Positions 5,033-6,287 of a DNA stretch of 6,450 bases are shown piece after piece. The notes below the pieces were generated by a model. That model was not told the DNA's origin, ran no database searches, and saw only the letters and a program-made list of their open reading frames with translations. Within the stretch, counting starts at the first letter, position 1, and the number at the start of each line of letters is the position of its first letter. Source of the stretch: Terriglobales bacterium (lineage in GTDB: Bacteria; Acidobacteriota; Terriglobia; Terriglobales; Gp1-AA117); contig JASLFF010000457.1 of assembly GCA_030150795.1 (NCBI GenBank), positions 1 to 6,450 of the forward strand. The letters run 5' to 3'. A program made the translations under genes and the position numbers.

Positions 5033-5281
5033 GTGCCAACAGTTCTCCGCTTCGATGGATTGCGTGTTGTTATCTATCCCAACGATCACCGCCCAGTTCA
5101 TGTCCACGTTATTGGTCGAGGCTGTGAGGCAGTATTCAATATGAACTGTTGGACCGGACCAGCCGAACTTCGCGAGAATTACGGCTTCCCCAAGCGAGCG
5201 CTATCGCACATTAGCAGCGTATTGACTGAACACTTGGAAGAACTTTGTAACAGATGGGAGGAAGTTCATGGCATTGCATGA
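5033..5281 (+). CDS. DUF4160 domain-containing protein
   Basis: 82 residues covering the whole DUF4160 domain. It starts MPTVLRFDGLRVVIYPNDHR, the characteristic family opening, with the conserved His-rich stretch YPNDHRPVHVHV (15-26), followed by GCEAVFNMNC, GPAELRENYGF (42-52) and a C-terminal helix HLEELCNRWEEVHG (67-80). The protein is small, soluble and has no signal peptide. Its biochemical function is not established to my knowledge. The family is often encoded just before DUF2442 proteins, and that arrangement has the look of a toxin-antitoxin-like pair; here too the next gene is DUF2442. The GTG start is forced by an in-frame TAA at 5021-5023 and by agreement with the family N-terminus. 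There is no Shine-Dalgarno sequence, so leaderless or near-leaderless translation is likely. It overlaps the next gene by 14 bases. Confidence 0.88.
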   Translation: MPTVLRFDGLRVVIYPNDHRPVHVHVIGRGCEAVFNMNCWTGPAELRENYGFPKRALSHISSVLTEHLEELCNRWEEVHGIA

Positions 5282-5681
5282 TGACTTCGAGATAGCTAAA
5301 CAGCGGGCCAAAGCCCTTCAATCCTCTCTTCCAAAGGCAGTTTCTGCCCACTATGACCGCAAGAGCGGGCGTATTGTAGTCGATCTAAGCTCTAGACTGA
5401 CTCTGAGTTTTTCACCAGATGATGCACAGGGGCTGGAAAATGCCAAGCCGTCTCAGTTGGATGAAATTGAAATAACTCCATCAGGTTTTGGAATTCACTT
5501 TCCCAAACTGGATGCAGACCTATACGTTCCGGGTCTCTTGGAAGGTCTTCTGGGCTCAAAGAAGTGGATGGCGTCAAGACTTGGCCAAGCCGGCGGCCAA
5601 TCCACGAGCACGGCCAAGCGCTCAGCTTCCAGAGCGAACGGGAGACTTGGCGGAAGGCCGAAAAAAGCTGCGAGGGGCTAA
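5268..5681 (+). CDS. DUF2442 domain-containing protein with basic C-terminal tail
   Basis: 137 residues. The N-terminal 20 residues form a charged helix. The DUF2442 fold spans roughly 24-98: AHYDRKSGRIVVDLSSRLTL, then SFSPDDAQGLENA (47-59) and the conserved GFGIHFPKLDADLYVPGL (73-90), ending LEGLLGSKKWM. The tail (about 105-137) is Gly/Ser/Arg/Lys-rich and contains NGRLGGRPKKA; the GRPKK core resembles an AT-hook, so DNA binding is possible but unproven. Members often sit next to DUF4160 genes, as here. Function is unknown; a partner or antitoxin and autoregulator role is an inference from the overlap, the tail and the upstream palindrome. The ATG at 5268 lies inside the DUF4160 gene and has a strong ribosome binding site (GGGAGGAAG, ending 3 bases before it), which indicates coupled and probably higher expression than the leaderless upstream gene. 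Confidence 0.87.
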   Translation: MALHDDFEIAKQRAKALQSSLPKAVSAHYDRKSGRIVVDLSSRLTLSFSPDDAQGLENAKPSQLDEIEITPSGFGIHFPKLDADLYVPGLLEGLLGSKKWMASRLGQAGGQSTSTAKRSASRANGRLGGRPKKAARG

Positions 5682-5717: not shown

Positions 5718-6235
5718 CTACCCCTTGTCCTTGTAGAACCCTTCGCTCCCAAACCCAAACACTCGGTTCGACCGTGCCCGATAATTTTCCCATGCAATCG
5801 CCGCCGCCAGTTCCACCAGTTGCGGCGTAGAGAACCGCTGCTGCAGCCGCTCGCGCAGATCAGGAGTTACCTTCGCTGGCGTTGCCGTGATTGCGTCCGC
5901 CATTTCCAGCACAAGTTTTTCGTCGGGAGAAAAAAGATCACTTTCCGCGTACCAGTTCAGGTTGCGGATCTGGTCGTCGCTCAAGCCTGCGAGTCTGCCG
6001 CCGGCAGAATTAATGTCGATTCAAAAAGGGCATTCCACCAGTTTGGCAGCGCGAATCTGTCCCAGGACCTTCAGCTTTGCCGGCACAAGATTTGTTTTCT
6101 CCAGGGCCATGCTGAACTTGGCATAAGGAATCATCACGTCAGGATGTGTAGCCACCGTCTGCAGGGGAGCAATGTCTTTGCCCAGCGTTTGCGGGCAAAG
6201 CGCCGGATCAGCGCAACTTGAAGCTTCTTCAGCAT
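5718..6235 (-). pseudogene. CMD (carboxymuconolactone decarboxylase/AhpD-like) gene, frameshifted, with TGA at the redox Cys: decayed gene or candidate selenoprotein
   Basis: The gene starts at ATG 6233-6235 (MLKKLQVALIRRFARKRW) with AGGAGA 8 bases upstream. After codon 18 the homology jumps to the -1 frame, where GKDIAPLQTVATHPDVMIPY follows; adding one G at the run opposite 6181-6183 restores the frame. That frame reads on through LKVLGQIRAAKLVECPF, meets TGA at 6021-6023, and continues IDINSAGGRLAGLSDDQIRN to the stop at 5718. The corrected protein is 172 residues, full length for this family. Cys69 is the first cysteine of the CxxC motif and the TGA is codon 72, where relatives have the second cysteine (CPFCIDI). 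CMD/AhpD proteins are small helical oxidoreductases in which this pair reacts with peroxides or disulfides. After the TGA the family pattern is well preserved (LFSPDEKLVLEMADAIT, LVELAAAIAWENYRARSN). Either the gene is decaying with two lesions, or it is a CxxU selenoprotein with one real or artefactual indel. The 5718-5984 frame opened by TTG is not an independent gene. Confidence 0.7.
5994..6008 (-). promoter_or_regulatory. SECIS-like hairpin downstream of the in-frame TGA
   Basis: On the coding strand, 12 bases after the TGA, TCTGCC and GGCAGA pair perfectly around a GGC loop. The loop begins 18 bases after the TGA and its first base is G. Both properties agree with the general bacterial SECIS description (apical loop roughly 16-37 bases downstream, G in the first two loop positions). 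Against it, the stem is short, and GGC and GCC glycine/alanine codons make such pairings common in GC-rich coding sequence, so by itself it proves little. Confidence 0.35.
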
Positions 6236-6287
6236 CGGGGTTCTCCTGGCCGATTCGATGAATGTGATCCCGGCCCGGATACTTCTT

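Follow-up and report, generated by a model that had tools for sequence, protein, structure and literature searches.

Selenoproteins with a CxxU motif in the CMD and AhpD groups have been known since 2005, when they were described from the Sargasso Sea (PMC1088965). An AhpD-like 2 selenoprotein of pfam02627 followed in 2008 (PMC2398784), and CMD-domain selenoproteins appear in later lists (PMC9312934, PMC13188914). For Acidobacteria, the part of a 2006 survey consulted here gives four selenoproteins in three families (PMC1794560). As described in the relevant parts of these papers, the known CMD proteins combine a Pfam CMD domain, a CxxU motif and an in-frame UGA with a hairpin downstream, the same as in the gene reported here. 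The first four sources bear out the initial annotation of this DNA, which held that selenocysteine forms had already been described in CMD/AhpD-like proteins. The likeness is one of description, and the acidobacterial clade is not tied to a listed entry in the parts of the lists consulted. In the open-licence literature, no paper was found on this gene in acidobacteria.

The window, by which we mean the whole analysed stretch of 6,450 nucleotides from a Terriglobales bacterium, carries a CMD/AhpD-like gene on the minus strand (5718..6235), which starts at ATG 6233-6235, ends at TAG 5718-5720 and contains a single internal TGA and a single frame slip. The internal TGA (6021..6023, minus), the predicted selenocysteine codon, is the sole stop in frame ahead of the terminal TAG in the read-through 5718-6242. 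Positions 6032-6021 read TGC CCT TTT TGA, that is C-P-F-stop, with VE before and IDINSAGG after, and homologues with Cys read CPFC at this C-P-F-U motif (CxxU; 6021..6032, minus). The in-frame TGA was thus correctly placed at the second Cys of a CxxC motif by the initial annotation. Its claim of a frame open past the TGA to the natural end stands as well, with the length corrected from 101 codons to a counted 100. Is it likely that a random nonsense mutation falls on this codon? In the 153 codons around the TGA there are 44 single-step routes to a stop; seven of them lead to TGA, and one of the seven lies at this codon (counted as TGC). The earlier argument that chance would seldom hit it therefore holds, at 1 of 44 routes and with the same TGA in 30 other distinct relatives.

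Among genomes, the window gene has its closest relatives in acidobacterial MAGs (Acidobacteriaceae, Terriglobia, Acidobacteriales). A scan of genome contigs gave nine loci: L001-L005 (77-92% identity) have TGA at the codon, while the acidobacterial L006-L008 (44-46%) and L009 from Pallidibacillus (30%) have TGT or TGC. Of 397 genomes sampled from the order to which the relative G001 belongs, 313 gave a match at E 0.001, and the best 47 rows (44 genomes) have one internal TGA each; this cut was set after viewing the list, with E 9.8e-22 for row 47 and 6.5e-18 for row 48, and among the weaker rows some hold one TGA and others no stop. For 30 loci fetched from the best 47 rows the TGA was located, and in 30/30 it falls on this same codon, the other 17 rows being covered by TGA count only. 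Once duplicates are taken out and the window and L001-L005 are counted in, 31 of 31 distinct close sequences have TGA there. The alignment of relatives proposed in the initial annotation thus gave a fully kept TGA, and the scattered stops that it named as contrary evidence were not seen, since no second internal stop was counted in the best 47 matches. A search of 396 genomes sampled from the phylum, with the Cys form P0074 as query, gave 17 matches in 16 genomes at E 1e-20, with TGA in 14 and TGC in 3. At the protein level, 84 of the best 120 of 319 homologues start after the TGA, and at the codon the residue is Cys in 31, Trp in 4 and Ser in 1; proteins were admitted if their length was 0.55-1.75 times that of the query, which leaves shorter cut-off gene calls uncounted. 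The closest Cys form among these best 120 of 319 has 49% identity, and Cys at the TGA codon is confined, among the homologues seen, to those below 50% identity. Judged by these alignments, the TGA of the window gene is not a private mutation and is common to close relatives.

Could the gene still be a pseudogene, in which the TGA arose by nonsense mutation and the slip in frame is a second lesion? Two apparent lesions within one gene would fit, and the initial annotation had named the nearby frameshift as its main counter-argument. The slip is real: one base is concerned at approx. 6182..6187 (minus), so that the N-terminal residues from ATG 6233-6235 to about 6182-6187 lie in a different frame, and L001-L004 have a single frame across that place. 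Either the slip arose in sequencing or assembly, or it is a recent lesion of the window copy, whose intactness it puts in doubt. The TGA, however, is common to 30 other distinct sequences, and selection persists beyond it. Upstream of the TGA, dN/dS of the window is 0.053 against L001 and 0.035 against L027; downstream it is 0.027 and 0.034. Against six further relatives the values are 0.023-0.167 with one incomputable by saturation, and they are rough because several pairs are near-saturated at synonymous sites. By these ratios, the region past the TGA is under purifying selection as protein. We therefore regard the pseudogene reading as very improbable, though the slip alone could have killed the window copy.

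Is there an RNA signal behind the TGA? A SECIS-like hairpin, TCTGCC-GGC-GGCAGA, lies at 5994..6008 (minus), starting 12 nt past the TGA with its loop after 18 nt, and its general form in relatives is TCTGCC-NNN-GGCAGA. At least five of the six pairs are formed in 31/31 sequences, against 3.78 expected under synonymous shuffling. Second copies of L001-L005 (L026, L028, L029, L031, L034) were dropped from the folding, codon, hairpin-pair and bSECIS counts. At +5 the Ser codon is TCT in 29 of the 31, whereas in the rest of these genes TCT accounts for 9% of Ser codons. At +9, all 27 Arg codons are AGA (22) or AGG (5), which account for 4% and 7% elsewhere; the other four sequences have no Arg there, and L004, L005 and L030 among them have a 7-8 bp stem instead. 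An alignment of 39 sequences (A3), made of the 31 and 8 of the 17 phylum-sample loci and therefore leaning towards the named structure, has changes on both sides in 4 of the 6 pairs. Its covariation score is 0.243, which was reached by 0 of 500 shuffles, and slid structures score 0.050-0.108. Left out of A3 were L057, L058 and L072 (already in), L062, L069 and L070 (Cys codon), and L064, L067 and L071, which are more distant TGA relatives with the hairpin in another register. When the test was confined to the 31 sequences and used a structure of 8 pairs, the covariation score again lay beyond every shuffle, but at least as many pairs with two-sided changes arose in 74 of 500 shuffles, and at least as many further pair types in 225 of 500. 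Note that the sequences are related to each other, so these covariation counts are not independent.

We also compared the hairpin with published bSECIS limits, which, in the part of the source consulted, are a loop of 3-9 nt, a stem of 4-16 bp, a spacing of 16-37 nt, a G in the first two loop positions and an energy of at most -7.5 kcal/mol (PMC13188914). The window hairpin is within the loop, stem, G and spacing limits (loop GGC, 6 bp, 18 nt), and its core has -7.4 kcal/mol against the limit of -7.5; the whole 39 nt reach -9.2 in another fold, and in this minimum-energy fold another pairing wins over the hairpin. All limits are satisfied by 22 of the 31 sequences, where shuffles satisfy them at a mean rate of 23%; 1 of 4 Cys sequences also satisfies them, as do 46% of the window's own synonymous shuffles. 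Whole-region folding energy gave no separation from synonymous shuffles (mean z -0.76 for the 31 sequences, +0.57 for the window), and what carries the RNA argument is therefore the hairpin in its fixed register, together with codon choice and covariation. RNAalifold kept only 3 pairs for the 31 sequences, and Rfam at gathering scores had no match in the window. The hairpin sought by the initial annotation is thus present at SECIS distance past the TGA, conserved and covarying, with an energy in the window that narrowly misses the published limit.

The initial annotation had further suggested a search for the sel genes. Run on relatives, it recovered selA, selB, selD and tRNA-Sec, incompletely in some assemblies. 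Over eight relatives' genomes (five with TGA and three with Cys forms), selA is found in 8/8, selB in 7/8, selD in 5/8 and tRNA-Sec in 6/8 (ARAGORN); for the five TGA genomes alone the numbers are 5, 4, 3 and 3. The one selB not over the cut-off, in G003, is partial. A tRNA-Sec-like match in the same genome is tRNA-Ser by ARAGORN and was excluded from the count. The five selD genes over the cut-off (G001, G002, G005, G006, G007) have one in-frame TGA each, which suggests that SelD of these genomes is probably itself a selenoprotein. In the order sample, tRNA-Sec was detected in 151 of 397 genomes: 37 of the 44 that carry the TGA gene and 114 of the 353 others (Fisher p 3.8e-11, kinship ignored). 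Among the 7 of 44 TGA-gene genomes without detected tRNA-Sec, selA is present in 6, and selB in 4 of the 5 searched. In G035, a 2.1 Mb assembly with the TGA gene, selA, selB and tRNA-Sec were not found. There is no general selB linkage: among 55 scanned loci, a number that includes copies, L040 of G241 alone has selB next to the TGA gene.

With the same signal kept in relatives and an RNA hairpin behind it, the stop signal is most likely read as selenocysteine, by far the best reading of the TGA. It is very probable that the window gene encodes a CMD/AhpD-like thiol-selenol redox protein whose UGA 6021-6023 is read as selenocysteine via SelB, tRNA-Sec and the downstream hairpin. The proposal of a candidate CxxU selenoprotein of the CMD/AhpD family is supported by the TGA in 31/31 sequences, the hairpin and the relatives' Sec machinery.

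There is a further question, whether the UGA might be read as another amino acid such as Trp or Cys, through a changed code or a suppressor tRNA. The four Trp homologues among the best 120 of 319 would agree with this, and they presumably come from gene calling with TGA as Trp. Against it, UGA also terminates the CMD/AhpD-like gene itself in 12 of the 31 distinct sequences; since the gene ends with TGA there, UGA is a normal stop in these organisms and is not generally reassigned. Moreover, each gene has a single TGA, at the Cys position of homologues, and the hairpin and the tRNA-Sec link also speak against such decoding, which we consider extremely unlikely. That the UGA truly stops and a second protein begins downstream is hardly credible either: the annotated starts after the TGA in 84 of the best 120 of 319 homologues favour such a split, but they are spread over nine alignment positions, the pattern expected if starts were chosen mechanically, the Cys homologues are single proteins, and the stop has drifted to TAA or TAG in 0 of the 31.

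What may the selenocysteine protein do? With the TGA read as Cys, the window protein (P0001) matches Pfam CMD PF02627 at 26.3 bits against a cut-off of 23, and the relative P0002, with Trp at the codon, scores 20.6 bits, below it. The AlphaFold2 model (mean pLDDT 83.9) is helical, and its helix 72-84 starts inside the CPFU motif (residues 71-74); an all-helical AhpD-like fold is predicted on this model. Foldseek matches among solved structures include PA0269 (2o4d/2ijc/7xw1), Atu0492 (2gmy), other AhpD-like proteins and the debrominase Bmp8 (6ohi, 6ohj). The likeness to these is one of fold, with TM 0.70-0.78 over the query at 18-24% identity, and the profile match has E 3e-22 for 2o4d and 9.4e-19 for 6ohi. 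Two printed alignments with PA0269 show Cys where the window gene has TGA. The best NCBIfam match, over residues 45-171, is NF053654 GroundWater_YciW (YciW-related (seleno)protein); at 91.3 bits against a cut-off of 310, the window protein is not a member of that equivalog. PADLOC assigned no family.

We infer that in the cell SelB and tRNA-Sec would decode UGA 6021-6023 as selenocysteine, guided by the hairpin that lies immediately behind this codon within the coding sequence. The product would have C-P-F-U where homologues have the CxxC pair. By analogy, the selenolate would attack a substrate, probably a peroxide; the neighbouring Cys would close a selenenylsulfide, and a cellular thiol reductant would reopen it. 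On the same analogy, the most likely role is that of a selenol-thiol redox pair with peroxides as substrates. It is unlikely that the CMD clade of this order has fixed Sec together with a selenol chemistry beyond AhpD peroxide reduction, for example a reductive dehalogenation like that of its fold-mate Bmp8.

In L001, L002 and L004 a gene for signal peptidase I (Pfam) precedes the CMD/AhpD-like gene on its strand; in the window the upstream partial ORF has no Pfam family match, so that gene context does not name the function. Elsewhere in the window, overlapping DUF4160 and DUF2442 genes lie on the plus strand (5033-5281 and 5268-5681), an arrangement that we take to resemble a toxin-antitoxin pair, and in L002 too a DUF2442 gene is found beside the TGA gene. 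A minus-strand protein at 267-1364 has weak hits in Pfam, namely glycoside hydrolase families 71 and 99, and WbsX. The same relatives' genomes also contain CMD/AhpD-like matches of about 30% identity with exactly one TGA each (e.g. G001:C109:3237-3641 and G002:C23:206954-207355), in sequence terms a probable further Sec family.

The kind of protein, a CMD/AhpD CxxU selenoprotein, has been known since 2005, and general knowledge of selenoproteins as such is unchanged by this gene, which adds a real but ordinary member. What it brings to the acidobacteria is a conserved selenocysteine CMD gene, of a sort that annotation tends to cut short. What is more, the gene is a clean test case for SECIS signals within coding sequence, since the rare codons TCT and AGA have been retained at the sites where the hairpin depends on them.
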